NCBI RefSeq assembly: GCF_001424665.1 | Contig: NZ_LMQS01000003.1 | Coordinates: 249,691-313,690, forward strand | From: Methylophilus sp. Leaf416 | GTDB lineage: Bacteria > Pseudomonadota > Gammaproteobacteria > Burkholderiales > Methylophilaceae | Reading direction: 5' to 3' | Length of the DNA stretch: 64,000 bases | In this document: positions 2,789 through 31,558 of the stretch, piece by piece | Numbering within the stretch: the first letter of the stretch is position 1 | Layout of the letters: each line of letters starts with the position of its first letter | The notes under the pieces: model-generated | What the model saw: only the letters and a program-made list of their open reading frames with translations | Database searches by the model: none | Told to the model about the DNA's origin: nothing | Position numbers and translations under genes: made by a program

Positions 2789-4486
2789 ATGGATCACAAC
2801 CTTTCCCTCATTACTACCATTGCCGCAGCCTTTGCGCTTTCGCTGATTTTTGGATTAATTGCCGAAAAACTAAAATTACCCGCCCTGATTGGTTATTTAT
2901 TTGCCGGAATATTAATCGGACCGGCTACACCCGGCTTCGTGGCAGATATTGAAATCGCGTCTCAATTGTCAGAGTTAGGCGTCATGCTGCTGATGTTTGG
3001 CGTCGGCTTGCATTTCTCCATCCAGGATCTGATGTCAGTCAAACGGATTGCCTTGCCCGGCGCACTCGTGCAAATGGCATTGGCCACCCTGCTGGGCATG
3101 TTGGTCGCCCATTATTGGGGCTGGAGCGTGGGTCATGGCCTGGTGTTCGGCTTATCCCTTTCGTGCGCCAGTACCGTGGTGTTACTGAAGGCCTTGGAAT
3201 CCAGACGCATCCTCGAAAGCATGAACGGCAAAATTGCCGTAGGCTGGCTGGTGGTGGAAGATATGATTACCGTGCTGGTACTGGTGTTGATGCCCGCACT
3301 GGCTGGCGCATTAGGCGGTCAGGGTGAGGTTGCCAATGCCGGTGCCATTTGGGAAACCATAGGCATGACTATGCTCGAAATTGCCGGTTTTGTCGCAGTC
3401 ATGCTGGTGGTTGGCCGACGTGTATTGCCATGGCTTTTGTGGTATGTCGCAGGCACTGGTTCACGTGAATTATTTACGCTTACCGTGATTGCAGTTGCGA
3501 TTGGTGTCGCTTTTTTTGCATCGTCCTTATTTAACGTCTCTTTTGCGCTGGGGGCATTCTTTGCCGGGATGATCATGCGCGAATCAGAATACAGTCATCG
3601 CGCGGCAGAAGATTCCCTGCCATTCCGCGATGCATTCGCAGTCCTGTTCTTTGTGGCTGTCGGGATGCTGTTTGACCCAAGCATCCTGATCAAGCAACCT
3701 TACCAGGTGCTGGCCGTAGTGGGCATTATTGTGGTCGGTAAATCGCTGGCAGCGGTTGCTATCGTACTTGCGCTTCGCTACCCGCTGAACACCGCCTTAA
3801 CTGTTGCTGCCAGCCTGGCGCAAATTGGTGAATTTTCGTTCATTCTGGCAGGGCTGGGCGTTTCGCTGGGCTTACTCTCCCAGGACGCAATGAGCCTGGT
3901 ACTGGCAGGGGCATTGATTTCAATTGCACTTAATCCGTTAGTGTTTGCCTCGATCAAACCGTTTGCCAACTGGGTGGTGAATAAATCTGATGTCGCGCGT
4001 CGCCTTTCACAACGCATAGACCCCTACGGTGAATTGCCGATGACTACCGAAAGAAAATTCCTGGAAGGCCAGGTGGTACTCGTGGGTTATGGCCGTGTTG
4101 GTAAACGCATTGCCATGTCATTGGAAGCTTCCAGCATCCCGTTTGTGGTGGCTGAGCAAAACCGGGAACTGGTAGAAAAACTGCGTAAAAAGGGCCAGCC
4201 TGCGGTGTCAGGTAACGCAGCTGACCCAATGGTATTGATACAGGCTCACATTGCTAACGCTGCCATGCTGATTATTGCCACACCGGACTCCATGGATATC
4301 CGTAAAATTGTCGATATTGCCAAGCAGTTGAAGCCCGATATCGAAGTGGTGATCCGCACGCATCACGAAGACGAATATCAGCGCCTGCAAAAAGAAGTCG
4401 GCGATACGGTGTTTTTTGGTGAGGAAGAATTGGCCAAAGGTATGTCAGCACACGTCCTAAAACGCTTTGAACGCCATGTACTCTGA
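2789..4486 (+). CDS. ybaL: Monovalent cation:proton antiporter, Kef/YbaL type with RCK domain
   Basis: The 565-aa protein has about 12 hydrophobic segments over residues 1-395 (Na/H exchanger fold of the CPA2 family). A cytoplasmic RCK/TrkA-N nucleotide-binding domain starts near residue 425, with the dinucleotide motif VVLVGYGRVGKRIAMS. The layout equals that of E. coli YbaL and KefB/KefC: inner-membrane K+/H+ exchange gated by ligand binding to the RCK domain. It has no apparent operon partner; neighbours are an acrR-like gene and the amide operon. Family is secure; ion specificity and whether it responds to glutathione conjugates are not decided by sequence. Confidence 0.9.
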   Translation: MDHNLSLITTIAAAFALSLIFGLIAEKLKLPALIGYLFAGILIGPATPGFVADIEIASQLSELGVMLLMFGVGLHFSIQDLMSVKRIALPGALVQMALATLLGMLVAHYWGWSVGHGLVFGLSLSCASTVVLLKALESRRILESMNGKIAVGWLVVEDMITVLVLVLMPALAGALGGQGEVANAGAIWETIGMTMLEIAGFVAVMLVVGRRVLPWLLWYVAGTGSRELFTLTVIAVAIGVAFFASSLFNVSFALGAFFAGMIMRESEYSHRAAEDSLPFRDAFAVLFFVAVGMLFDPSILIKQPYQVLAVVGIIVVGKSLAAVAIVLALRYPLNTALTVAASLAQIGEFSFILAGLGVSLGLLSQDAMSLVLAGALISIALNPLVFASIKPFANWVVNKSDVARRLSQRIDPYGELPMTTERKFLEGQVVLVGYGRVGKRIAMSLEASSIPFVVAEQNRELVEKLRKKGQPAVSGNAADPMVLIQAHIANAAMLIIATPDSMDIRKIVDIAKQLKPDIEVVIRTHHEDEYQRLQKEVGDTVFFGEEELAKGMSAHVLKRFERHVL

Positions 4487-4613
4487 TACGCGTATAAAAA
4501 CTAAAGTCCGGGCGGCAATTTACGTCAAATAACGCATAGCTGTTTGCCACACCGCCGCTTAAACTAGCTTCACGAATGAAGATTGCCGTTACAGGCACCT
4601 GACATATTTCTCA

Positions 4614-4690
4614 CGCCGTCAACAGAGCCGGCGATGAGCAGAGCAAAAAAGCTCACCCACCGTTTTAAAACGGCAGGTGAGCTTTTTTTT
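4614..4690 (+). promoter_or_regulatory. amiE leader: candidate ANTAR-controlled antiterminator/terminator
   Basis: The leader contains an intrinsic terminator (next entry) and two short hairpins before it. Hairpin 1 has arms CGCCG (4614-4618) and CGGCG (4629-4633), with an inner C-G pair closing a hexaloop AACAGA (4621-4626). Hairpin 2 has arms GAGC (4641-4644) and GCTC (4651-4654) with hexaloop AAAAAA. The 3' arm of hairpin 2 is also the start of the terminator 5' arm, so the two structures exclude each other. AmiR-type ANTAR proteins are known to antiterminate amidase leaders. Both loops have A at position 1 but A, not the usual G, at position 4, so the match to the ANTAR consensus is partial. 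Confidence 0.55.
4651..4690 (+). terminator. Intrinsic terminator in the amiE leader
   Basis: GCTCACC (4651-4657) pairs with GGTGAGC (4676-4682), with an inner stem CCGTTTT/AAAACGG separated by a CA/CA internal loop, followed by eight T residues (4683-4690). It lies 56 bp upstream of the amiE start and downstream of ybaL. It could end ybaL transcripts, but its overlap with an alternative hairpin and the presence of amiR argue for attenuation of the ami operon. Confidence 0.85.
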
Positions 4691-4745
4691 CGTCTGTTGC
4701 CAGCGTGATTCATTCATTTCACTTACTTTTATTCAGGAGAAGCAC

Positions 4746-5823: not shown

Positions 5824-6981
5824 ATGGCAAATACCGACCCGATTTCGGTCGGCGTCCTGTTTTCGACCAGCGGCGCCACTGCAACCATAGAACGCTCACA
5901 GGCATTTGCGACCTTTTTCGCCATCAACGAAATCAACGCGGCTGGCGGCATTTGTGGCCGCGAACTGTTGCCAGTACATTACAATCCGCAAGGCATTTCG
6001 CAACAATATCAAGCATTGGCTGAACGCATGATCCGTGAGGACAAAGTCAATGTGATTTTTGGCTGCTACATGTCCAGCACGCGCAAAGCGGTGATCCCGG
6101 TAGTTGAGAAATGGCGCAAGTTGTTGTTTTACCCAACCCCTTATGAGGGTTTTGAGTTTTCGCCACATGTGATTTACACAGGCGCCGCACCTAACCAGAA
6201 TAGTGCACAACTGGCGGATTATATGACCCGTCACTTTGGTGCGCGTGTTTACCTGATTGGCTGTGATTATATCTATCCCTATGAGTCCAACCGTATCATG
6301 AGTGACTTTATCCTCGAGGTCCCTGGTGGCAAAAAGCTGGCCGAGCGCTATTTGCCACTGGATGCCACGGAAAAAGACTTTTTGCCGATTGCGCGCGACA
6401 TCAAGGCAAAATCTCCTGACTTTGTATTCTCCACTGTGGTTGGCAAAGCCACCCGCATGTTGTACCAGGCCTACGCTGACATTGGCATGGATGCCATGAA
6501 AACACCGATTGCAAGCCTGACCACTTGTGAAGCGGAAGCCGCTGAAATGGGCAGCAGGATTGCGGCTGGACATTTCACGTCAGCGCCCTACTTCCAGTCG
6601 ATTCAGACTGCAGAAAACCAGGCCTGCCTACGCAAGTTCCGTGAACAATATGGCGACGAGATTGAGCCTAACATGTGCTGGGAAGCCGCTTACTTTCAAA
6701 CACACTTATTCGCTGAAGCCATGCGTGCAGCAGGCGACGATACCTACGATGTGTTGTTGCCCCATATACTCGGTCGTGAACATCAGGCACTGCAGGGTCG
6801 TGTGGCGATTAACCCCGCCAACCATCACACTTTACTGCATCCTCGTATAGGTCGCGTCAATCACCATGGTCAGTTCGACATTGTGGCCGAGTCAGCCGGC
6901 GTGAGCCCGGATCCATATCTTGTCACGCATACCAATGAGACTTGGCGTCAGTTTATGATGCCGGAGCCGCAAATTGGCTAA
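5824..6981 (+). CDS. amiC: Amide sensor and negative regulator of AmiR
   Basis: AmiC is a periplasmic-binding-protein-like sensor that works in the cytoplasm: it holds AmiR inactive and releases it when it binds an amide. The 385-aa length equals Pseudomonas AmiC, there is no signal peptide, and diagnostic stretches are present (FGCYMSSTRKAVIPVVEKW, YPTPYEGFEFSPH, PNQNSAQLADY, FSTVVG). It begins 58 bp after amiE. Its 3' end overlaps the amiR start by eight bases, so the two regulators are probably made in a coupled ratio, as expected for a stoichiometric complex. Confidence 0.94.
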   Translation: MANTDPISVGVLFSTSGATATIERSQAFATFFAINEINAAGGICGRELLPVHYNPQGISQQYQALAERMIREDKVNVIFGCYMSSTRKAVIPVVEKWRKLLFYPTPYEGFEFSPHVIYTGAAPNQNSAQLADYMTRHFGARVYLIGCDYIYPYESNRIMSDFILEVPGGKKLAERYLPLDATEKDFLPIARDIKAKSPDFVFSTVVGKATRMLYQAYADIGMDAMKTPIASLTTCEAEAAEMGSRIAAGHFTSAPYFQSIQTAENQACLRKFREQYGDEIEPNMCWEAAYFQTHLFAEAMRAAGDDTYDVLLPHILGREHQALQGRVAINPANHHTLLHPRIGRVNHHGQFDIVAESAGVSPDPYLVTHTNETWRQFMMPEPQIG

Positions 6982-7594
6982 CAAAGGTGCAACAGGCTCA
7001 CGCTCAACCCTGGAGCTATTCCGCCAGCTACGACAGTCACGCATGACCATTTTTCATCCACGCGATGAAAAATGCAGTACATTGATACAGCAACTAGAGC
7101 GCATAGGCTGCCAGACCGTGTCACTGTGGCCACCCACTGCTGAACTGCCCGAAAAAACAGATCTGGTGATTTTTCTGTTGAATGCGGAGGCCAGTAATAG
7201 AAAAAAACTGCCCTGGTTAATGCCTGACTCGCCAATTCCGCTGATTGGCATGATTGAGTATGAAAACCCGACCATTCTCGATACGGCTACAACACTCGGC
7301 TGTCATGGCATTCTGGTCAGTCCGACGCAACCACATGGCATCCTGTCTACTCTTATTATGGCGATTCACCATTTTCATGAAGTCAGGACCTTACAAAAGC
7401 GGAACCAGCGCCTGGAGCAAAAACTGCAGGCAGCAAATGAAATCAGCGCCGCACAGGCGATCCTGGCCCGTGCACGCGGTATCAGCGCCATCGCAGCCTA
7501 CAAACTCATGCGCGAACAAGCCATGCTCAAGCGTGTGACAGTGGAAGAAATTGCGCGAGCGATTGTGCATGCCGAAGGGACTTTATTCAATTAA
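6974..7594 (+). CDS. amiR: ANTAR-domain transcription antiterminator AmiR
   Basis: AmiR is an RNA-binding antiterminator of the amidase operon, sequestered by AmiC. The 206-aa protein has a degenerate receiver-like N-terminal half, a coiled coil (about 135-155), and a C-terminal ANTAR domain ending near residue 200 (AQAILARARGISAIAAYKLM). The likely start is TTG at 6974, preceded by GGAG seven bases upstream. The alternative ATG at 7043 would remove residues that align with the N-terminus of Pseudomonas AmiR (the run leading to LERIGC). The start overlaps the amiC stop codon. The expected target is the terminator-containing amiE leader at 4614-4690. Confidence 0.9.
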   Translation: MANKGATGSRSTLELFRQLRQSRMTIFHPRDEKCSTLIQQLERIGCQTVSLWPPTAELPEKTDLVIFLLNAEASNRKKLPWLMPDSPIPLIGMIEYENPTILDTATTLGCHGILVSPTQPHGILSTLIMAIHHFHEVRTLQKRNQRLEQKLQAANEISAAQAILARARGISAIAAYKLMREQAMLKRVTVEEIARAIVHAEGTLFN

Positions 7595-13699: not shown

Positions 13700-13793
13700 T
13701 GGACTCCTGGTTCACGACTGCTTCGCTGCCGCGTCATCCGTATCAGGTTCCTCTTTCATTAAGCCTGCTTTAATTCCGTTTTAAACAAAAATG

Positions 13794-13822
13794 AATGTGC
13801 ATCGGGAACGTGCACATTTTTT
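13794..13822 (+). terminator. Intrinsic terminator after the efflux operon
   Basis: AATGTGCA (13794-13801) pairs with TGCACATT (13811-13818) around a 9-nt loop, followed by a T-run to 13822. It lies between the outer-membrane factor and the NIT-ANTAR gene. It overlaps a possible upstream start (13791) of that gene, which argues for the later start at 13839. Confidence 0.75.
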
Positions 13823-13838
13823 GCTTAGGTTTTCAGTA

Positions 13839-15107
13839 ATGAGTACAGATATTTCCCCCGAACAAACCATTATCCTGGCCAAAATCAGGCATATCGAAGA
13901 GCTTGAACGCCTGGATACCTGCATTCAATTTGTCGAAAGCATAGGCCAGATGGTGCACCAGATGCAGGCTGAACGTGGGGCAAGCTCCCTGTACCTGGCT
14001 TCTGCGGGCAAGCGCTTTGCTTCCGAACGCGCAGAGATCATCAGCAAAAATCTTGCGCTGGAAACACGCTTCAAAAAGGCGTTAACGCAGCATCTTGATC
14101 AGAACGCACTGGCAGATGCTAAGCAGCTGACTTTAATTTCCTGGATACTGCTAGGCCTGGACCAGCAAACATCGTTGCGCCACCAGATCACCCTGCAAAA
14201 GATTTCTTTTACCGATTGCATTGAGTCATTCAGCCGCCTGATTGCCAGCCTGATTTCGCTCATTTTTGAAATCACGGATAGTTCGGTAAACAATAAGATT
14301 TCCACCTGTTTACTCACGCTGTACAACTTGATTCAAGGTAAGGAGTTTGCAGGCCAGGAACGCGCGGTCGGTTCTTATATCTTTGGTTCAGGTAGCTTGC
14401 AACTGCCGCACCAGCAAAAACTACTGGAACTGGTCGCCCAGCAAGAGCGGCATTTTGAATTATTCAGCCAACTGGGCGGTGATGAGTTAAGACAAGCCTG
14501 GACTGCATTGCAAGCAACCAGCCTGCACCGGCAGCACCTGAAATATCGTCATAAACTGACCTCCGCCCTGGACCAGCAGCCGCTGAAATCCAGTGATGCA
14601 GATATCTGGTTTGATTTATGCACGCAACTGCAAACTGAAATCTGGCAGATTCAATGCCAGTTAATCGAGAAAATGCATAGCATGCTGAAAGCGCTGGCAC
14701 ACCAGGCCAGGCACGATCTGGAACAAACGCAGGAATATTTAAATACGATTGCGGCCAAGCGCTCTTCAACCTTGGATAGCACGTTTTTCAACCTGGCAAT
14801 CCCGGTGGAAAGTGCCTTGAATTTCCAGGCGCAAGACACAATCCAGACTTACCCGATCGCCTCGATGATCAGCCTGTTGCAGCAACAATCACAGCAGATC
14901 GCAGATATGGAAAGCGAGCTGGCGGATACCCGCAAAGCCCTGGTTGAACGCAAGCAGATTGAGCGTGCGAAAGGCTTGCTGATGAGTACACTGGGCATCA
15001 ATGAAATGGAGGCTTACAAGTCTCTGCGCAGCATGGCGATGGAACAAAACCGCAAGGTGATTGATGTCGCCGAGAATATCCTCGCCCTGCACAAAAACAC
15101 CGGTTAA
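13839..15107 (+). CDS. nasR: NIT-domain nitrate/nitrite-sensing ANTAR antiterminator (NasR-like)
   Basis: One-component regulator with an N-terminal NIT sensing domain and a C-terminal ANTAR RNA-binding domain, the architecture of Klebsiella NasR, which binds nitrate or nitrite and antiterminates the nitrate assimilation leader. The NIT region (about residues 25-270) contains the family hallmark MQAERGASSLYLAS. The ANTAR region (about 365-415) reads ERAKGLLMSTLGINEMEAYK. From the ATG at 13839 it has 422 residues; a start at 13791 would lie inside a terminator hairpin. It sits directly upstream of the nrtA leader, which carries a matching ANTAR-type terminator overlap. Substrate is inferred from family and context. 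Confidence 0.93.
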   Translation: MSTDISPEQTIILAKIRHIEELERLDTCIQFVESIGQMVHQMQAERGASSLYLASAGKRFASERAEIISKNLALETRFKKALTQHLDQNALADAKQLTLISWILLGLDQQTSLRHQITLQKISFTDCIESFSRLIASLISLIFEITDSSVNNKISTCLLTLYNLIQGKEFAGQERAVGSYIFGSGSLQLPHQQKLLELVAQQERHFELFSQLGGDELRQAWTALQATSLHRQHLKYRHKLTSALDQQPLKSSDADIWFDLCTQLQTEIWQIQCQLIEKMHSMLKALAHQARHDLEQTQEYLNTIAAKRSSTLDSTFFNLAIPVESALNFQAQDTIQTYPIASMISLLQQQSQQIADMESELADTRKALVERKQIERAKGLLMSTLGINEMEAYKSLRSMAMEQNRKVIDVAENILALHKNTG

Positions 15108-15220: not shown

Positions 15221-15237
15221 TTGGCATAACAATTGCT
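15221..15237 (+). promoter_or_regulatory. Sigma-54 (-24/-12) promoter of the nrt operon
   Basis: TTGGCATAACAATTGCT places GG at 15223-15224 and GC at 15235-15236, the exact -24/-12 spacing of RpoN promoters, with TTGC complete at -12. Transcription should begin near 15248, just before the ANTAR hairpin region. The surrounding 354-bp gap (15108-15461) is otherwise accounted for by the enhancer site, leader hairpins, terminator and ribosome binding site. Confidence 0.75.
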
Positions 15238-15255
15238 GAACAGGTTTTAAGTACT

Positions 15256-15405
15256 CAGCTAACGGCGGTTGGATACGAGTAGAGTAAGTTGAAATTGCGA
15301 GCTTGATAAAAATCAGGCCACTCATCGTAAGCAGTTTTTAAAGATTGAGGACAAAGGCGTCCTGAGTGTAAACGAACCCTCGTTTGCACTCAGGACGCCT
15401 TTTTT
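15256..15405 (+). promoter_or_regulatory. nrt operon leader: two ANTAR-type hexaloop hairpins overlapping a terminator
   Basis: Hairpin P1 has arms CAGCT (15256-15260) and GGTTG (15267-15271; two G-U pairs) around hexaloop AACGGC. Hairpin P2 has arms AGGAC (15348-15352) and GTCCT (15359-15363) around hexaloop AAAGGC. Both loops have A at 1 and G at 4, the hallmark of ANTAR RNA targets. The loop end and 3' arm of P2 are also the beginning of the terminator 5' arm, so P2 and the terminator are mutually exclusive. The spacing between P1 and P2 (about 76 nt) is long compared with described tandem motifs. The natural binder is the NIT-ANTAR protein encoded just upstream. Confidence 0.75.
15356..15405 (+). 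terminator. Intrinsic terminator in the nrt leader
   Basis: GGCGTCCTGAGTG (15356-15368) pairs with CACTCAGGACGCC (15387-15399), the stem is prolonged inward by further A-T/G-C pairs, and a T-run follows (15400-15405). It is located after the predicted sigma-54 start and 57 bp before nrtA, so it would block the operon unless antiterminated. Confidence 0.9.
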
Positions 15406-22219: not shown

Positions 22220-23908
22220 ATGAGTCTCGTTTTTACAGTCGGTGAACATAGCGTAACCGGTCCCAGGCTGCGTAACGAAGACTATGTCACCGTGGTCACC
22301 CCCGCTGCCTCGCAGTTGGCAATCAAAGGTGCCTTGATGCTGGTCGCCGATGGTGTCAGCGGTGGTGCCGGTGGTGCTGAAGCGTCGGAAATGACTGCCA
22401 GGAGTATTTCGGCGGATTATTACGCCACCCCGGAAACCTGGACGGTGCAGCATGCGCTGGACAAGGTCGTGCAGGCGGCCAACCTGTGGGTACTGTCGCA
22501 GGCACGCAAGAACAGCAAGATGGCGGGCATGGCAACGACCTTGTCCATGCTGGTATTGCGCGGTCAGCGCTATGTGCTGGCACATGTGGGCGACACGCGT
22601 ATTTACCGCCTGCGCGAGCAATCATTGCAGTGCCTGACTACGGATCACGTTTGGGACAGACCGGACATGCGGCATGTGCTTAAACGTGCGATCGGGCTGG
22701 ATGACCAGCTAACGGTGGATTATGCTGAAGGCTTGCTGCAACCCGGTGATGTGTATGCCATCCTCAGTGATGGGGTATGGGATGCAGTGGGCGATGCGGA
22801 AATTCACCGCGCGTTGATGCTCTACCACTCCCCGCAAATGGTGGCTGAATACCTGACTGCACTGGCGATCGAAAAAGGCGGCCAGGATAATGCTTCCGCG
22901 GTGATCGTTAATATTGAAAGCGTCGGCCAGGACCATCTGACCGATATGCTAGCCGATGCGCTCAGCCTGCCGTTGCCGCCTAAACTTTCTGTAGGCGACC
23001 AGATCGATGGTTTCACCGTGACCAGGGTGATTCACGATTCGCGCCTGAGTATCCTCTACCAGGTGAAAAATCCAGCCGGGCAACTGTTTGTTTTAAAAAC
23101 CCTGCAACCCTCACGTGCGGACGACAAGGAAAGTTGCGAAGCTTTACTGAATGAAGAGTGGCTAGCCAAGCGCGTCGTCTCGCAATGTGTGCCGCAGATA
23201 TTGCCGCTGACGCTGGAACAGCGCAGCGCACTTTATTATGTGATGACCTGGCACGAAGGCTCAACCTTGCAGCAACGGCTGGATGCCGGCCACCATTTCA
23301 CCATGAATGGCGTTGCCAATATCGGCCAGGATTTATTGCGCGGTTTGAGCATGTTGCACCGCCTGAATATTGTGCACCGCGATATCAAACCAGCCAATAT
23401 CCATATCGGTAGTGACACCCGCCTGCGGATTCTGGATCTGGGTGTCGCGCTCAACCCTACCCTGCCGATGCCAGAGCAGATGGAAAACCCGGGCACACCC
23501 AGTTTTATGGCACCCGAGTTGTTTGACGGTAAAGTGGCTGACCGACAAGCAGACATTTATGCAGCCGGCGTGACACTTTATCATTTGCTCACCCGTAAAT
23601 ATCCCTACGGCGAAATAGAGCCTTTCCAGTCACCACGTTTTGGCGAGCCGATCAAACCCAGCCGCTACCGGCCAGAAATCCCCGCCTGGCTGGAAAACGT
23701 GATTCTTAAAGCGATCGCCAGGAAAGCGGAAGACCGTTTTGAAACGGCCGAAGAAATGCTGCTTGCCATGGAGCATGGCGAATTGAAGCCGGTAGTGATT
23801 CCACGCATGCCACTGATTGCGCGCGCCAGGCTTGTCAAATGGCAGTGGCTGGCTATCTGCTCGTTGCTGGCTAATCTTATCCTGATCTACTTGTTGTTTA
23901 TTACCTGA
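22220..23908 (+). CDS. Bifunctional PP2C-type phosphatase / Ser-Thr protein kinase, membrane-anchored
   Basis: The N-terminal ~240 residues form a PP2C phosphatase (RLRNEDYV, LMLVADGVSGG, ILSDGVWD, GGQDNASAVIV). Residues about 260-515 form a Hanks-type kinase with ATP lysine in FVLKTL, HRDIKPANI, DLG in place of DFG (RILDLGVAL), and MAPE. A single hydrophobic helix ends the protein (WLAICSLLANLILIYLLF). The 562-aa protein thus carries opposing activities on one chain at the inner membrane. Similar fusions lie in nitrate-assimilation clusters of pseudomonads, but targets are not known to me. A TATAAT at 22188-22193 hints at its own promoter. Confidence 0.9.
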   Translation: MSLVFTVGEHSVTGPRLRNEDYVTVVTPAASQLAIKGALMLVADGVSGGAGGAEASEMTARSISADYYATPETWTVQHALDKVVQAANLWVLSQARKNSKMAGMATTLSMLVLRGQRYVLAHVGDTRIYRLREQSLQCLTTDHVWDRPDMRHVLKRAIGLDDQLTVDYAEGLLQPGDVYAILSDGVWDAVGDAEIHRALMLYHSPQMVAEYLTALAIEKGGQDNASAVIVNIESVGQDHLTDMLADALSLPLPPKLSVGDQIDGFTVTRVIHDSRLSILYQVKNPAGQLFVLKTLQPSRADDKESCEALLNEEWLAKRVVSQCVPQILPLTLEQRSALYYVMTWHEGSTLQQRLDAGHHFTMNGVANIGQDLLRGLSMLHRLNIVHRDIKPANIHIGSDTRLRILDLGVALNPTLPMPEQMENPGTPSFMAPELFDGKVADRQADIYAAGVTLYHLLTRKYPYGEIEPFQSPRFGEPIKPSRYRPEIPAWLENVILKAIARKAEDRFETAEEMLLAMEHGELKPVVIPRMPLIARARLVKWQWLAICSLLANLILIYLLFIT

Positions 23909-24151: not shown

Positions 24152-24168
24152 TTGGCATGTCGCTTGCT
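24152..24168 (+). promoter_or_regulatory. Sigma-54 (-24/-12) promoter of nirB
   Basis: TTGGCATGTCGCTTGCT has GG at 24154-24155 and GC at 24166-24167, exact RpoN spacing, and shares TTGGCAT...TTGCT with the nrtA promoter. Transcription should start near 24179. The 461-bp gap between the kinase gene and nirB (23909-24369) is explained by this promoter, the leader and the terminator; nothing coding is seen in it. Confidence 0.78.
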
Positions 24169-24214
24169 AATTGCTCTATAGATATTAAATCTCGTTTTAT
24201 TAACGATTAGTTTT

Positions 24215-24290
24215 TATGGACAACGGCGTCCATAGCTTGTTTTTCGAACTGCCATCGGTAGTCGCTAGATAAGCTATGGACGCCTTTTTT
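24215..24290 (+). promoter_or_regulatory. nirB leader: ANTAR-type hexaloop hairpin overlapping a terminator
   Basis: TATGGAC (24215-24221) and GTCCATA (24228-24234) form a perfect 7-bp stem closing hexaloop AACGGC, with A at 1 and G at 4. The loop end and 3' arm are the first part of the terminator 5' arm (24225-24238), so the two folds exclude each other. The loop is identical to the first hairpin of the nrt leader. A second upstream hexaloop hairpin, usual in ANTAR motifs, was searched for in 24170-24214 and not found. Confidence 0.8.
24225..24290 (+). terminator. Intrinsic terminator in the nirB leader
   Basis: GGCGTCCATAGCTT (24225-24238) pairs perfectly over 14 bp with AAGCTATGGACGCC (24271-24284), followed by six T residues (24285-24290). 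The 32-nt apical region may fold further. It lies between the sigma-54 promoter and nirB. Confidence 0.92.
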
Positions 24291-24369
24291 CGTTTTTAGC
24301 TTAGTAAACAGCAATGCATGATCAATGAAATAACGTGTCACATGCTTGCATCTGATGGGGAACATTACG

Positions 24370-26934
24370 ATGAATCAACACACCCGCATAGTAGTTGTCG
24401 GCAACGGCATGGTGGGACATTACTTTATGCAGGAGCTGGTCAAGCGCCACCCTGACCTGGCGGCCGCCAACCTGCAAGTGACAGTATTGGGCGAAGAACC
24501 ACGCCCTGCTTATGACCGTGTGCATCTTTCCAGCTTTTTCTCCGGCAGCACAGCTGAAGACCTGTCACTGGTTGAGCCTGGTTTTTATGACCGCCCTGGC
24601 CTGGAATTGCGACTGAATGCGCGTGTGAGCCATATTGATAGACATCAGCATGTCGTCACCCTGACTGACAACACGACGCTGCCATACGACAAACTGGTAC
24701 TGGCCACCGGCTCGGTACCGTTCGTGCCATCGGTGGCGGGTCGTGACCGCGAAAACTGCTTTGTGTACCGCACCATTGAAGACCTTGAAGCGATGACCGC
24801 GGCAGGTAAAACCTCCAAGAGCGGCGTGGTGGTCGGCGGTGGCCTGCTGGGCCTGGAATGCGCCAAGGCATTGCGTGACATGGGCCTGGATACCCACGTG
24901 GTGGAATTCGCCCCGCGCCTGATGGCGGTGCAAGTGGACGAAGCCGGTGGCCGTGTGCTGCGCAGCAAGATTGAGGAGCTTGGTGTGCATGTACATACCA
25001 GCCGCAATACCACCGCGATTGTCGATGGCGCGACTGCACGCCACCGCATGGTGTTTTTTGATGAAACCTGGCTGGAGACCGACATGATCGTGTTCTCTGC
25101 CGGTATCCGTCCGCGTGATGAACTGGCGCGTGAATCCGGCCTGGCGATAGGCGCACGTGGCGGTATCGCGATTGACGATTTCTCACGCTCCAGCGACCAC
25201 GACATTTACGCCATCGGCGAATGTGCCAGCTGGAACGACGAGATGTTTGGCCTGGTAGCCCCTGGCTACGATATGGCCCGCACGGCCTGCGCGCATCTGG
25301 CTGGCGAAACCGCATCAACTTTCCAGGGTGCAGATATGAGCACCAAGCTCAAGCTGATGGGCGTCGATGTCGCCAGTGTCGGTGATGCGCATGGCAAGAC
25401 CCATGGCTGCCGTAGCTACCAGTACACAGATGAAGTGCGCAACATCTACAAAAAAATCGTCGTCAGCGAAGATGGCAAGAAACTGCTGGGCGCGGTGCTG
25501 ATCGGCAATGCCGATGAATACGGCACCTTGCAGCAAATGACCGTCAACAACATGGCCTTGCCGGAAAATCCTGAATTCCTGATCCTGCCTGCCAGTGATG
25601 GCAAGGAAAAACCTGGCCTGGGTGTGGATGCATTGCCAGACACGGCGGTGCTATGTTCTTGCAACAACGTCAACAAAGGCGAGATTGGCGAAGCGGTGGC
25701 TGCCGGCAATTGCAGCATAGGCGCCATCAAATCCTGCACCAAGGCGGGTACGGCCTGCGGTGGCTGCGTACCTTTAGTGACGCAAGTGATGAAAGCGCAT
25801 ATGGTCAAGCTGGGCATGACCGTCAACAATCACCTGTGCGAACACTTTCCCTATTCACGCCAGGAGCTTTACCACCTGGTGCGCGTAGAGCAGATCAGGA
25901 CCTTTGACGAACTGTTGCACAAGCATGGTAAAGGCCTGGGCTGCGATATCTGCAAGCCGACTGCCGCCAGTGTACTGGCTTCAGTCTGGAATGATTTTAT
26001 CCTGAAGAAAGACCTGGCTTCACTGCAGGATTCCAACGACTACTTCCTCGGCAATATCCAGAAAGATGGCAGCTACTCCGTGGTACCGCGCATGCCGGGT
26101 GGCGAAGTCACACCGGATGGCCTGATCGCCATCGGCCAGATCGCCAAGAAATACAAGCTGTATACCAAAGTGACTGGTGGTGCACGAGTGGATATGTTCG
26201 GTGCCCGCGTCGAGCAATTACCTAATATCTGGGAAGAGCTGATCGCTGCCGGTTTTGAATCCGGCCATGCCTACGGCAAATCGCTACGTACTGTAAAAAG
26301 CTGCGTCGGTTCCACCTGGTGCCGCTATGGCGTGGACGACAGTGTCGGCCTGGCGGTACAGCTGGAGAACCGCTACAAAGGCTTGCGTGCGCCACACAAG
26401 ATCAAGTTTGGGGTTTCCGGTTGCACGCGTGAATGCGCCGAAGCACAAGGCAAGGATGTGGGTTTGATCGCAACCGAAAGCGGCTGGAACCTTTACGTTT
26501 GCGGTAACGGCGGTATGAAACCTCGCCATGCCGAACTCATCGCCAGCGACCTCAGCAAAGAAGACGCCATCCGCATGATAGACCGCTTCCTGATGTTCTA
26601 CATCCGCACTGCTGACCGTTTGCAACGCACCAGTACCTGGCGTGACAACCTGGAAGGTGGCCTTGATTACCTGAAAGACGTGGTCATCAACGATAGCCTG
26701 GGCCTGGGCGCAGAGCTGGAAGCGCAGATGCAGCATGTGGTGGATAACTACCAGGATGAGTGGAAAACCGCCGTCAATGATCCTGAAGTGCGCAAACGTT
26801 TCCGCAGCTTCGTCAACAGCGTGGCTGGCGACAACAACATCGTCTTCGTCAAGGAACGCGACCAGATGCGCCCGGCAACAGTAGAAGAAAAGAAGCAGGC
26901 AAAGGTCATCCCAATCCTGGCAACGACCGAGTAA
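24370..26934 (+). CDS. nirB: Assimilatory nitrite reductase, large subunit
   Basis: Cytoplasmic NAD(P)H-dependent siroheme nitrite reductase reducing nitrite to ammonium. From the ATG at 24370 (GGGGA upstream) it has 854 aa. It contains an FAD-binding fold (RIVVVGNGMVG), a NAD-binding fold (SGVVVGGGLLGLECAKALR near residue 148) and a BFD-like [2Fe-2S] domain (CSCNNVNKGE and CTKAGTACGGC, about 430-465). The siroheme/[4Fe-4S] cysteines lie in KSCVGSTWCRYG (about 645) and SGCTRECAEAQGKD (about 685). nirD follows after 16 bp. Confidence 0.97.
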   Translation: MNQHTRIVVVGNGMVGHYFMQELVKRHPDLAAANLQVTVLGEEPRPAYDRVHLSSFFSGSTAEDLSLVEPGFYDRPGLELRLNARVSHIDRHQHVVTLTDNTTLPYDKLVLATGSVPFVPSVAGRDRENCFVYRTIEDLEAMTAAGKTSKSGVVVGGGLLGLECAKALRDMGLDTHVVEFAPRLMAVQVDEAGGRVLRSKIEELGVHVHTSRNTTAIVDGATARHRMVFFDETWLETDMIVFSAGIRPRDELARESGLAIGARGGIAIDDFSRSSDHDIYAIGECASWNDEMFGLVAPGYDMARTACAHLAGETASTFQGADMSTKLKLMGVDVASVGDAHGKTHGCRSYQYTDEVRNIYKKIVVSEDGKKLLGAVLIGNADEYGTLQQMTVNNMALPENPEFLILPASDGKEKPGLGVDALPDTAVLCSCNNVNKGEIGEAVAAGNCSIGAIKSCTKAGTACGGCVPLVTQVMKAHMVKLGMTVNNHLCEHFPYSRQELYHLVRVEQIRTFDELLHKHGKGLGCDICKPTAASVLASVWNDFILKKDLASLQDSNDYFLGNIQKDGSYSVVPRMPGGEVTPDGLIAIGQIAKKYKLYTKVTGGARVDMFGARVEQLPNIWEELIAAGFESGHAYGKSLRTVKSCVGSTWCRYGVDDSVGLAVQLENRYKGLRAPHKIKFGVSGCTRECAEAQGKDVGLIATESGWNLYVCGNGGMKPRHAELIASDLSKEDAIRMIDRFLMFYIRTADRLQRTSTWRDNLEGGLDYLKDVVINDSLGLGAELEAQMQHVVDNYQDEWKTAVNDPEVRKRFRSFVNSVAGDNNIVFVKERDQMRPATVEEKKQAKVIPILATTE

Positions 26935-26950: not shown

Positions 26951-27343
26951 ATGAGTCAATTACAACAAGCAGCCGTATCAGACAGTACAGCCAATCAGGC
27001 GGCGATTTCCACTGCCGCTTCAGGCACCTGGCATGCAGTGTGCGCACTGGATGATATCTGGCCCAACACCGGCGTATGCGCCCTGGTAGAGGGTCGCCAG
27101 GTGGCGATTTTCCGCTTGCAGGACGACCTGCTGTACGCCATCGACAACTACGATCCGCACAGTGATGCCAACGTCATTTCGCGTGGCATCGTCGGTGACC
27201 TGGGTGGCGAACGTGTCGTCGCGTCCCCCATTTACAAGCACCATTACCAGTTGAGTACCGGCATCTGCGTGGAAGATACGGATATCCGCCTGCAAACCTA
27301 CCCGGTGGAACTGCGCGATGGCGCAGTCTGGGTACAGGTATAG
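26951..27343 (+). CDS. nirD: Assimilatory nitrite reductase, small subunit
   Basis: 130-aa Rieske-fold partner of NirB. It shows the NirD stretch DNYDPHSDANVISRGIVGDL, but the Cys-X-His ligand pairs of true Rieske proteins are absent, as is normal for NirD, so it binds no cluster. A ~25-residue disordered N-terminal tail precedes the fold. Tightly linked to nirB and followed 30 bp later by the nitrate reductase gene. Confidence 0.94.
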   Translation: MSQLQQAAVSDSTANQAAISTAASGTWHAVCALDDIWPNTGVCALVEGRQVAIFRLQDDLLYAIDNYDPHSDANVISRGIVGDLGGERVVASPIYKHHYQLSTGICVEDTDIRLQTYPVELRDGAVWVQV

Positions 27344-27373: not shown

Positions 27374-30300
27374 ATGGTGAAGCAGGTTAAATCAGTTTGC
27401 CCGTATTGTGGCGTAGGTTGTGGCATTGTCATGGAAGTGGAGGATGACTTAGCAACCAAGACCCGGCGCGTGATCAAGGTCTACGGTGACAAGCAGCATC
27501 CGACCAACTATGGCCGCTTGTGTACCAAAGGCAGCACCTGCATACAAGCCATTGCTGAATCCGGGCGCCTCGAATCTGCCTATGTGCGCCCTGAACGCGG
27601 GCAGGAGTCCGTGCGTACCGGCATGGACGAAGCCATCAAGGAAACCGCACGCCGATTGCGTGGCATTCTCGACGAGCATGGCCCGGACGCCATTGCCTTA
27701 TATGTTTCCGGCCAGATGTCGATTGAATCCCAGTACCTGGCAAACAAGCTGGTCAAAGGCTACCTCGGAAGCAATAACATTGAATCCAATTCCCGCCTGT
27801 GTATGGCCAGTGCCGGCAGCGGTTATAAACTGTCGTTAGGCGCAGATGGTCCACCGGGTTCCTACCAGGACTTTGACCAGACCGACCTGTTTTTTGTGAC
27901 CGGCGCCAATATGGCCGATTGCCACCCTATCCTGTTCCTGCGCATGATGGACAGGGTCAAGGCTGGTGCCAAACTGATCGTGGTAGATCCACGCCGCAGT
28001 ACCACTGCCGATAAAGCACACCTGTTTATGCAGATCAAGCCGGGAACCGACCTCGCCTTGCTGAATGGCCTGCTGCACCTGCTGGTGAAAAACGGCCATA
28101 CTGATGCCGAATTCATCGCCGAATTTACCGAAGGCTGGGAAGTGATGCCGGCCTTTCTGGAAGATTACTCGCCGGAAAAAGTGGCCGAGATCACCGGCCT
28201 GAATATCGCGGATATCCTCCAGGCGGCTGAATGGATAGGCACCAGCAAAAACTGGATGAGTTGCTGGACCATGGGCCTGAACCAAAGCACGCATGGCACC
28301 TGGAATACCAATGCGATTTGTAACCTGCACTTGGCTACCGGCGCGATTTGCCGTCCGGGTAGCGGCCCGTTTTCACTGACCGGGCAACCGAATGCCATGG
28401 GCGGACGTGAAATGGGCTATATGGGCCCGGGCTTACCCGGTCAGCGTTCTGTGCTGGTCGAACAGGACAGACAGTTTATCGAACAGCTTTGGAAAGTGCC
28501 GGAAGGCACCCTGCATACCCGTCTCGGCGGCGGCACCGTAGCCATGTTCGAGCAGATGATGGCAGGCAAGATCAAAGCCTGCTGGGTGATCTGCACCAAC
28601 CCGGTCGCCAGCATGGCCAACCGCAAAAATGTGATTGCCGGCCTAGAGAAAGCCGAACTGGTCATTGCACAGGATGCCTTCCTCGACACCGAAACCAACC
28701 GTTATGCCGACATTCTGCTACCAGGCGCCTTGTGGGCCGAAGCAGAAGGTGTGATGATCAACTCCGAACGCAATATGACCCTGATGCAACAGGCAGTCAA
28801 TGCACCTGGCGAAGCCATGGCTGACTGGCAGATCATCGCCAAAGTCGCTTGCGAGATGGGTTTTAGCGATGGATTCAGTTACAACAGTGGTGCCGAAGTA
28901 TTTGAAGAAATTACGCGCACGACCAATCTCAACACCGGCTATGACATCCGTGGCGTCAGCCATGGAAAGTTACGCGAAACATCGCTGCAATGGCCGTGTT
29001 CACCGGATAGCCAGAATGACAGAAACCCGATTCGCTACCTTAACGATGGCATCAACCAGGTTTTAAAAATACGTGAAGACGGCAGCCGGCCACGTATTGC
29101 ATTTGCGACAGCGAGTGGTAAAGGCGTGTTCTTTGCCCGCCCGCATATGGATCCGGCCGAACTGCCCGACGACGACTTCCCGTTTGTGCTCAACACCGGT
29201 CGCTTGCAGCACCAGTGGCACACTATGACCAAAACCGGCAAGATCGCTACCCTGAATAAACTCAACCCGGGACCGTTTGTTGAAATGCATCCTGAAGATG
29301 CCGCCGCCTTAGGGATTAAAGACAAGGACCAGGTTGAAATCCGCTCACGACGCGGCCGTGCAGTATTACCCGCCGTGGTGACCGACCGCGTACGCCCTGG
29401 CAACTGCTTCGCCCCCTTCCACTGGAATGATGTGTATGGCGACGACCTGACAATCAATGCCGTGACCAGCGATGCGATTGACCCTATCTCGCAACAACCC
29501 GAATTCAAATTTTGCGCCGTGACCATGACACGCGTTGCCAGCGCGCCTGCCCCGCTTAGTCAGGACGCAGAAGAGCTTGCCCTGATCGCCACCGGTGAGG
29601 CGAGCAAGAATAACAAGGAACTCGACATGAGAGATATCGATGCTTTGGCCAGGTTACTTGGCCTGGATACCGCACCCGAAATTGTCCTCGAGGCGCAGGA
29701 ACAGCTTTATCTGCAAGGTTTTATTAGTGGTTTACGTAGCGAAGAATCACGCAAAATGGGCGGTGTACCCATGCTGCCGGAAAGCGCACCACTGGCTCCG
29801 GCCAAACACCTGCTGGTCAATGGCATGCTGGCGGGATTATTTGCGCGTAGCTGGTTACCGCATGGCGACCAGTTTCCCAGCGGCTTGCCGGATTTTTCGG
29901 CCAACCCGGCAACGGCTGCCGCTACTGTGGCTATTCTATGGGCATCACAAACCGGCAATGCCGAAGGCTTTGCCGAGAAATGTGCCGAGCGCATCAGATC
30001 AGGCGGTCTGCAAACGTCAGTCAAGGCCATGGATAGTATCAACATGGCAGACCTGGCTAAATACGCACAAGTCTTGCTGCTGACCAGTACCTTTGGTGAC
30101 GGTGACCCGCCAGACAATGCCAGCCTGTTTTGGAGTGGACTGCAGGCAGAGAATGCGCCATCACTTGAAAATACCCGTTTTGCCGTGCTGGCCTTTGGCG
30201 ACTCCAGCTATGCCCAGTTCTGCGGCTTTGGCCGCAAACTGGATGCCAGACTGGAAGCACTAGGCGCGCAACGCCTGCTTGACCGCGTTGACTGCGAACC

Positions 30301-31558
30301 GGATTTTGAGGAACCAGCCAATGCCTGGCTAGAGAAAACAGTGGCGGCTTTGGCGGCTGTGTCTGCCCCCGTCAACCAACCGGTGCTGGCAATGGCGGAT
30401 TTAATCGATGAAGCAGTCAGCGATATTGCAGCATACCCGGCAGCGCCCGCATACACACGTCAACATCCGCTAAAAACCAGGCTGATCATCAACCAGCGCC
30501 TGAACGCGGAAGGTGCTGAAAAAGAAATCCGCCAGTTTGGCTTTGATTTGAACAATAGCGGGTTCAAATATGAAGCTGGCGATGCGCTGGGGGTGTGGCC
30601 AACAAACAACCCGGAGTTGGTCAGTGAAATGTTGCGCGCATTAAAGCTTTCCGCTTCGACCATGGTCACCGTCAAAGAGCAAGGTGAGCTTGCACTAGGC
30701 GATGCTTTGCTACATCACTACGAAATCGCACGGATTACCCCGGACTTGGTGAAATTTGTGCAGGAACATAGCGCCAGCCCGGCCCTGGCATTATTGATGG
30801 AAGATGACGAACGCCTCAAAGACTGGCTATGGGGAAAACAAATCATCGATCTTTTACTGGCCTTCCCGTTTAAAGTCGAAGCTAGCAAATGGCTGGCCGT
30901 ATTAAAGCGTTTGCAGCCACGTTTGTACTCCATTTCGTCCAGCCCTAAAGTTTTTCCGGACCAGGTGCATTTAACGGTATCCACAGTACGTTACGGAAAA
31001 GACCTGGCACGTGGTGGCGTCTGCTCTACGTTTATGGCAGACCGCGCACAAGAGGCAGAAGTCTATATTTTCTTGCAACGCTCTGCACACTTTCGCCCAC
31101 CAAAAAACCCTGATGCGCCGCTGATCATGGTGGGCCCTGGCACTGGCATTGCCCCATTCATCGCCTTTTTACAGGAACGCCAGGCAATTGCCGCCAAAGG
31201 TAAAAACTGGTTGTTTTTTGGCGAACAGCATGCCGCCACTGATTTTTACTATAAAGAAGAGCTCGATTCTCTGCAAAAAACAGGTGTGCTGGACAAGCTG
31301 AATACTGCTTTCTCACGCGACCAGAAAGAAAAGATCTATGTGCAACATCGCATGCTGGAGCAAGGTGCAGAGTTGTGGCAATGGCTGCAACAGGGCGCGC
31401 AGTTCTGCGTGTGTGGTGATGCCAGCCGCATGGCGAAAGATGTGGATGCCACCTTGAAAGCCATTATCAAGACGCATGGCAACATGACCGCAGAACAGGC
31501 GGCTGATTACGTTTCAACCATGGCCCGAGAAAAACGGTATGTGCGTGATGTGTACTAA
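27374..31558 (+). CDS. nasA: Assimilatory nitrate reductase fused to a CysJ-like diflavin reductase
   Basis: 1394-aa fusion reducing nitrate to nitrite. The N-terminal part is a molybdopterin oxidoreductase with [4Fe-4S] ligands Cys9, Cys12, Cys16 and Cys50 (CPYCGVGC...LCTKG), catalytic and MopB-type folds to about residue 570 and a MopB C-terminal domain to about 720. The second half is a diflavin reductase: FMN-binding flavodoxin ([17 protein letters not shown] near 857), FAD domain ([19 protein letters not shown] near 1180) and NADPH domain ([18 protein letters not shown] near 1255), ending KRYVRDVY like CysJ. NADPH electrons would reach the molybdenum site within one chain, replacing a separate NasB/NasC reductase. 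Confidence 0.95.

Follow-up and report, generated by a model that had tools for sequence, protein, structure and literature searches.

A probable NasR-controlled nitrate attenuator before nirB of Methylophilus sp. Leaf416, with P2 as its sole canonical hexaloop

The nasF leader of Klebsiella oxytoca serves nitrate assimilation, is governed by the NIT-ANTAR regulator NasR and has a C–G-closed hexaloop with A at position 1 and G at position 4 (A1/G4) in a hairpin, P2, that excludes the terminator. The nirB leader of Methylophilus sp. Leaf416 appears to be like it in these respects, but nasF carries two hairpins, P1 and P2, both of which are required for full binding, whereas the nirB leader is without P1. 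NasR of K. oxytoca is reported to bind lone P2 at ~12 μM, compared with ~1 μM for P1P2 (PMC7496416). The eut leaders of Enterococcus faecalis, with their regulator EutV, share the geometry of P2 and terminator; the nirB leader differs from them in having one hexaloop instead of two, and no kinase/receiver input. In the eut leaders the linker is given as 5–12 nt, and linkers of 3 or 14 nt impair induction (PMC3369931).

Both hexaloops are described as necessary for antitermination, which changes to the linker impair or abolish (PMC8934654, PMC3369931). EutV binds single hexaloops, yet reportedly requires both for antitermination; Walshe et al. narrowed the definition of the minimal ANTAR binding site to a single hexaloop and stated that the role of single-hexaloop motifs needs work (PMC8934654). 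A scan of actinobacteria took as its criterion two hexaloops joined by a linker of 2–25 nt (PMC8164766). Our search of the open literature found nothing under Methylophilus by name and, among the matches listed, the term ‘single hexaloop’ solely in PMC8934654.

Two Rfam families also bear on this locus. The consensus of narK RNA (RF03032) begins with a σ54-like GGCaCA...UUGCU and ends in CGAC-AAAGAC-GUCG, an A1/G4 hexaloop. That of P11 (RF00625), which we take to be NalA of Pseudomonas, has GGAC-AAAGGC-GUCC before the terminator, as P2 stands here. Both printed consensus sequences combine an A1/G4 hexaloop hairpin with a σ54-like box, and the printed descriptions are silent on ANTAR. NalA is described as the nirBD leader under the control of NasT, and has a σ54 promoter, nirBD genes downstream and a protein-controlled terminator (PMC12830290), features that the nirB leader probably shares. 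The regulators would differ, NasT in one case and a NIT-ANTAR one-component protein encoded near the leader in the other.

Anatomy of the nirB leader

We analysed a 64,000-nucleotide stretch of the Leaf416 genome, here called the window, in which the nirB leader has the following parts:

24152–24168, + strand: σ54-type −24/−12 box TTGGCATGtcgcTTGCT of the nirB operon (pattern match)
24179, + strand: predicted transcription start, ~12 nt past the −12 GC (σ54 spacing applied to the box)
24192–24206, + strand: P0, a 5′ hairpin (TCGTT-TTATT-AACGA) without an A1/G4 hexaloop (fold, alignment)
24207–24214, + strand: 8-nt spacer with the junction where relatives have the P1 hairpin (pairwise alignment)
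24215–24234, + strand: P2, ANTAR-type antiterminator hairpin, 7 of 7 pairs (direct reading and inverted-repeat search)
24225–24290, + strand: intrinsic terminator, arms 24225–24238 and 24271–24284 (14 of 14 pairs), then T6 at 24285–24290
24370–26934, + strand: nirB, nitrite reductase large subunit, the first gene 3′ of the leader

A preliminary description of this DNA had reported a perfect 7-bp stem with the hexaloop AACGGC (A1, G4), the 3′ half of which also serves in the 5′ arm of a terminator with a 14-bp stem and T6 after it. Direct reading and an inverted-repeat search confirm both points. The arms of P2 are TATGGAC (24215–24221) and GTCCATA (24228–24234), with an extra pair U24214–G24235, and the loop (24222–24227) is closed by a C–G pair. 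The terminator arms are GGCGTCCATAGCTT and AAGCTATGGACGCC, respectively. Ten bases (24225–24234), comprising the end of the P2 loop and its 3′ arm, are common to P2 and the 5′ arm of the terminator, and the two structures are mutually exclusive.

Folded alone, P2 has a free energy of −8.0 kcal/mol (z −4.1), and 1 of 200 shuffles was equally stable; for 24179–24292 the value is −46.9 kcal/mol (z −7.9), and none of 200 shuffles was as stable. These folds begin at the likely start, 24179, and replace a fold from 24170 that was dropped, in which the 5′ arm of P2 paired upstream of that start. The terminator form beats P2 at equilibrium in folds from 24179, so P2 could matter only if it is held during RNA synthesis, as in known ANTAR systems.

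The promoter box reads TTGGCATG-tcgc-TTGCT. Transcription from σ54 promoters starts some 12 nt beyond the −12 GC, and the transcript should therefore begin near 24179. The pattern YTGGYAN6TTGCW occurs three times in the window against 0.62 expected, a number reached by 1 of 100 shuffles, and two of the three matches precede the two nitrate leaders, those of nirB and nrtA. Compared with several relatives, the promoter has seven extra bases within 24156–24175 (7-nt gaps in the alignment), which create a new, correctly spaced TTGCT; by sequence reading, an older AATTGCT remains 7 nt downstream of it.

The motif GGACAAMGGCGTCC has exact matches at two places in the 2,940,342-base genome, the nirB and nrtA leaders, both inside the window, where two matches with at most one mismatch compare with 0.05 expected. 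With two mismatches there are 25 places genome-wide against 91 for the reversed control; because the pattern is then no commoner than its control, only the exact matches are meaningful.

Downstream of nirB lie a frame that we take to be NirD-like (26951–27343) and then one that we take to be nitrate reductase-like (27374–31558), both named from their translations. The nirB leader is separated from an MFS transporter gene by a fused PP2C phosphatase–protein kinase gene (22220–23908).

Candidate regulators

The window encodes two ANTAR proteins, as had been stated:

13791–15107, + strand: NIT-ANTAR regulator (NasR type); Pfam NIT 142.6 bits (cut-off 24.9), ANTAR 64.1 bits (cut-off 27.3)
6974–7594: AmiR-type ANTAR gene, near genes that we take to be AmiC- and amidase-like

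The NIT-ANTAR gene is 9 kb from the nirB leader. Its product is similar to NasR of K. oxytoca (nitrate regulatory protein, PDB 4akk; E 1e-32) and to EutV (6wsh; E 7e-5). In the alignment to 6wsh, by our own count, it has R, K, R, Y and M at the positions equivalent to the RNA-contact residues R142, K143, K147, Y164 and M172 given for EutV (PMC8934654). We regard this protein as the likely binding partner of P2, and the AmiR-type protein as a less likely one. The amiE leader (4486–4720) has no A1/G4 hexaloop hairpin of at least 3 bp. A strong terminator-like hairpin lies at 4590–4700, before the amidase/AmiC/AmiR-like genes, and likewise contains no such hexaloop hairpin.

A third ANTAR match in the genome, outside the window, is a 77-amino-acid frame (G000:C1:972799-972939; L003:1435-1668) with little beyond the ANTAR domain. 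Similar frames of 78–88 amino acids are present in 11 of 12 Methylophilus genomes and in 0 of 6 genomes of a neighbouring genus examined.

Conservation of P2 in orthologous leaders

A search of 150 genomes of the family gave 18 nirB starts (88–100% protein identity), to which a search of 22 genomes of the genus added none. Upstream of 17 of these are a box, P2 and terminator; the remaining start, in G010, has no leader of this kind. The alignment shows GGACAACGGCGT without variation in 17 of 17 leaders, and the position next to it has U for C in G075, which gives a G–U pair. A σ54-type box with at most one mismatch occupies the matching place in all 17. The terminator loop from P2 to the 3′ arm has 46 bases in the window and 45–47 in 14 of the 17 leaders.

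The part of GGACAACGGCGT that lies outside the terminator, GGACAAC, is 100% identical in 17 of 17 leaders; the leader before the P2 core has a mean pairwise identity of 51% among the 16 relatives. GGACAAC is invariant although the terminator does not need it, so the antiterminator pairing, and not termination alone, looks selected; selection appears to act on P2 itself.

Of the 18 genomes searched, 17 contain a relative of the NIT-ANTAR protein, as do 16 of the 17 with a nirB leader; the copy in G010, the genome whose nirB is without the leader, is just 34% identical, and in G139 the match covers only the C-terminal part, where the contig ends. In the one genome without a relative, G030, another ANTAR frame, 217 amino acids long, lies immediately before the nrtA leader, and the genomes of the orthologous nirB leaders carry an ANTAR gene. 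In G030 (L223, minus strand) this shorter protein, with a receiver-like start by eye, replaces the NIT-ANTAR protein, and the P2 leaders are kept. The ANTAR geometry suggested earlier is thus supported by a hexaloop core that recurs in 17 of 17 orthologous leaders, behind a σ54-type box and in genomes with an ANTAR gene; the loss of conservation that had been named as evidence against it was not seen.

Matches to RNA families

A covariance-model search had been proposed as a check. At gathering score, no Rfam family matched the nirB leader. Far below threshold, P11 scored 25.8 bits against a gathering score of 70 (E 0.001 in a 501-base search), in a match that spans the box, P2 and the terminator, and narK scored 18.8 bits against 43.2; by these scores the leader differs from both families. 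At the nrtA leader P11 scored 27.5 bits. A P11 search of the whole genome at E 10 returned that leader and one unrelated place (14 bits) and missed the nirB leader, and P11 matches were also found in 9 of 14 control genomes, so we give the P11 match little weight.

The nrtA leader and the distribution of P1

The window appears to hold a second ANTAR-type attenuator, before nrtA:

15221–15405, + strand: nrtA leader, σ54-type box 15221–15237, terminator through T6 at 15400–15405
15255–15272, + strand: P1 of the nrtA leader, TCAGCT-AACGGC-GGTTGG
15348–15363, + strand: P2 of the nrtA leader, AGGAC-AAAGGC-GTCCT

The two leaders are alike in promoter type, P2 core and terminator, whereas a canonical P1 is present only in the nrtA leader, ~76 nt upstream of P2. 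We read 16 nrtA leaders of the family beside NIT-ANTAR genes, and each has an A1/G4 hairpin, at least 3 bp long, some 30–110 nt upstream of P2; hairpins of at least 4 bp are found in 14 of 16, with a shuffle expectation of 1.8.

We also gathered leaders of the box–P2–terminator kind by pattern. Matches came from 8 of 369 genomes class-wide and, with a somewhat different pattern, 48 of 399 order-wide; all 52 order-wide sites listed were read. A loose contig pattern search gave at least 119 stretches, many of them chance matches. Sites were retained if they had P2, a matching terminator arm and at least T3, and 5 of 64 retained sites that had no box were omitted, leaving 59. Among the matches listed, P1 (at least 4 bp) occurred in 50 of 59 against a shuffle expectation of 3.7, a count that may include chance hairpins (L188, L067). 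It does not represent nitrate leaders in general fairly, because the patterns allow at most 42 (class-wide) or 44 (order-wide) bases from P2 to the terminator 3′ arm and so miss long-loop leaders such as most of the 17 family nirB leaders. Without the nrtA leader of the window and a G115 duplicate the figure is 49 of 57 among the matches listed, and a later batch of leaders gave 13 of 15.

Sorted by downstream gene, and again among the matches listed, P1 was present before 17 of 19 NrtA-like genes, 22 of 23 MFS nitrate transporter-like genes (a class that includes weak matches of 32–45 bits), 4 of 5 unassigned genes, 6 of 8 NirB-like genes (the misses being G115 and G202) and 1 of 4 CobA-like genes, the other three of which have 3-bp A1/G4 hairpins. 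In this sample P1 is the rule, from which the nirB leaders of Methylophilaceae depart. Canonical P1 hairpins are kept in 4 of 4 Paraburkholderia/Burkholderia-type nirB leaders, so nirB leaders do not in general show this departure.

Spacing and number of hairpins vary among the P1-bearing leaders listed. The nearest P1 is more than 25 nt from P2 in 16 of 50, and 20 of 50 have at least two upstream A1/G4 hairpins, a few of which are overlapping alternatives. Some leaders (L091, L129, L175, L201, L205, L207, L213 and others) have two A1/G4 hexaloop hairpins upstream of P2, three in all with P2 itself; these often stand before MFS nitrate transporters.

Another Burkholderiales genus, represented by G825, G601 and G797, has canonical P1 in all three nrtA leaders (genes named by eye). 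The nirB leaders of these genomes have a stem of 4–5 bp in the place of P1, with the hexaloops UUAAUC, CUUUUU and UUCCUC; an overlapping alternative A1/G4 hairpin of five pairs, two of them G–U, can be drawn in G825, and a 3-bp A1/G4 hairpin lies 34 nt from P2 in G601. The split in P1 between nrtA and nirB leaders largely recurs in this second genus. G202 belongs to the same class; each of its two nitrate leaders has P2 and no A1/G4 hairpin of at least 4 bp in the 120 nt upstream; the nirB-side box has one mismatch and the nrtA side has no clear box. This genome has one ANTAR protein, a 420-amino-acid frame before nrtA. A canonical P1 is thus absent and P2 intact in 11 further Methylophilaceae nirB leaders, in the nirB leaders of another genus and in both G202 leaders.

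Loss of P1 from the nirB leader

The preliminary description was right that this leader has a lone hexaloop hairpin, unlike the tandem motif; relatives have an upstream hairpin that the window leader has lost. Between the promoter box and nirB, no A1/G4 hexaloop hairpin other than P2 was found with an unbroken stem of at least 3 bp, nor in the fold. One candidate for a hidden P1, the hexamer AACGAU near P0, would require a U–U closing pair and was rejected by eye. Measured against the dual hexaloop motif (Ramesh 2012), P2 has the A1/G4 hexaloop on a stem of at least 3 bp (7 bp, AACGGC) and its 3′ part lies within the 5′ arm of the terminator (24225–24234), but an upstream P1 with A1 and G4 is missing. 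Because this one defining feature fails, we file the leader as a single-hexaloop variant that would work like the family.

Minimum-energy folds of all 16 relatives place a hairpin just upstream of P2. Its loop is a canonical A1/G4 hexaloop in five, ACCGUC in G105 and AUCGUC in G066, G093, G099 and G081; the other 11 loops differ from this in length or sequence. The folds were used for this count because four of the canonical hairpins have a stem mismatch and a search for unbroken stems (4 bp) therefore undercounts, giving P1 in 2 of 17 nirB leaders (the one in G075 lies at P0) against a shuffle expectation of 1.4; the unbroken-stem count was used for the other leader sets.

Box and P2 are 74–79 nt apart in 15 of 17 leaders, 44 nt apart in G105 and 49 nt apart in the window. 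In pairwise alignments the gap at P1 in the window leader is single and 35–36 nt long against G087, G110, G120, G062 and G053, and split against the other 11 relatives. Close matches to P0 occur in G110, G075 and G115, where P1 lies downstream of P0. As a hairpin occupies the place of P1 in G105 and in 5 of 5 leaders of the neighbouring genus, its deletion from the window leader is the simplest reading. On a tree of nirB coding sequences the window genome and G105 fall outside the 10 other Methylophilus leaders, and the canonical-loop state of P1 requires at least two changes.

Proposed mechanism and alternatives

We consider it probable that the nirB leader is a NasR-controlled nitrate attenuator of the NalA/nasF type, a known kind, with P2 as its only canonical hexaloop. 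From the anatomy of the leader, its conservation, the loss of P1 and the regulator gene, all read in the DNA itself, we infer promoter use, protein binding, read-through and the dependence of read-through on nitrate. Under nitrogen limitation, σ54 RNA polymerase, presumably with NtrC, would start near 24179. When nitrate and nitrite are lacking, the NIT-ANTAR protein would be inactive, the 14-bp terminator would form and transcription would end at ~110 nt, in the U tract. When nitrate is present, the protein would bind the A1/G4 hexaloop of P2 as the hairpin emerges, and bound P2 would retain the terminator 5′ arm (loop GGC and GTCCATA), allowing the polymerase to continue into nirB. Given the deletion of P1, antitermination would use one hexaloop, and the affinity would probably be below that of the nrtA leader, where both P1 and P2 are kept. 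Since binding to a lone P2 is reported for K. oxytoca NasR, and to single hexaloops for EutV, lone P2 could suffice if NasR is abundant or the timing of the leader allows; we conjecture that the threshold of nirB would then lie above that of nrtA. The need for both hexaloops and the effect of linker changes in published work, the restriction of the deletion to one genome, the Rfam scores below gathering, the failure of the whole-genome P11 search to return this leader and the P1 of Paraburkholderia/Burkholderia-type nirB leaders count against the attenuator reading.

Some other hairpin might stand in for P1, namely P0 in the window and P1 with a variant loop in relatives, in which case the dual-hairpin rule would hold with a relaxed loop. 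All 16 relatives do have a predicted hairpin just before P2, even where the A1/G4 loop is missing; P1 in another genus retains its stem and a six-base loop while A1/G4 is lost; and the deletion puts P0 8 nt before P2, within the 5–12 nt reported for E. faecalis eut leaders (PMC3369931). The loop of P0, however, is five bases (UUAUU) and lacks G, the P1 loop of nasF reportedly depends on its A1 and G4, which are essential, and the P1 loops of relatives vary in length and sequence, so we judge such a substitution unlikely.

We think it less probable still that the attenuator is decaying, the loss of P1 having left nirB poorly inducible or not inducible, with basal read-through and P2 as a recent relic. 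This would agree with the need for both hairpins reported for tested systems (PMC3369931, PMC8934654) and with a deletion in 1 of 17 leaders; since it is confined to one genome, P2 may simply not have decayed yet. Yet P2 has 7–8 pairs in the window, more than in several relatives (4 in G043 and G053, 5 in G105), the downstream reading frames are open, and the branch of this genome is not short (0.096 changes per site on the nirB tree), with the deletion datable only to somewhere within it. That the leader is just an ordinary terminator or a small RNA gene, free of ANTAR control and with an incidental hexaloop hairpin, could be argued from the Rfam description of P11 as a Pseudomonas sRNA; with GGACAAC invariant outside the terminator in all 17 leaders and the exact motif co-occurring with nitrate operons and ANTAR genes, we hold it to be very improbable.

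Implications for the two-hexaloop rule

Beyond the NasR-controlled attenuator, we put forward a broader idea tentatively, a little short of even confidence. One canonical hexaloop may be enough for NasR-type antitermination, and nirB leaders may more than once have lost the ANTAR signature of P1 (in Methylophilaceae, the further Burkholderiales genus and G202), with the nrtA leader keeping it in the first two; one regulator would then serve two operons with different affinity, through a one-hexaloop and a two-hexaloop leader. If true, the two-hexaloop rule would be a tuning device and not a requirement. The published requirement for P1 makes the nirB leader a natural test case, and together with the two-hexaloop nrtA leader of the same genome it offers a ready-made pair for testing the role of a single hexaloop. 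A scan for two hexaloops with a linker of 2–25 nt would by its criterion skip both the nirB leader and, with its 76-nt linker, the nrtA leader.
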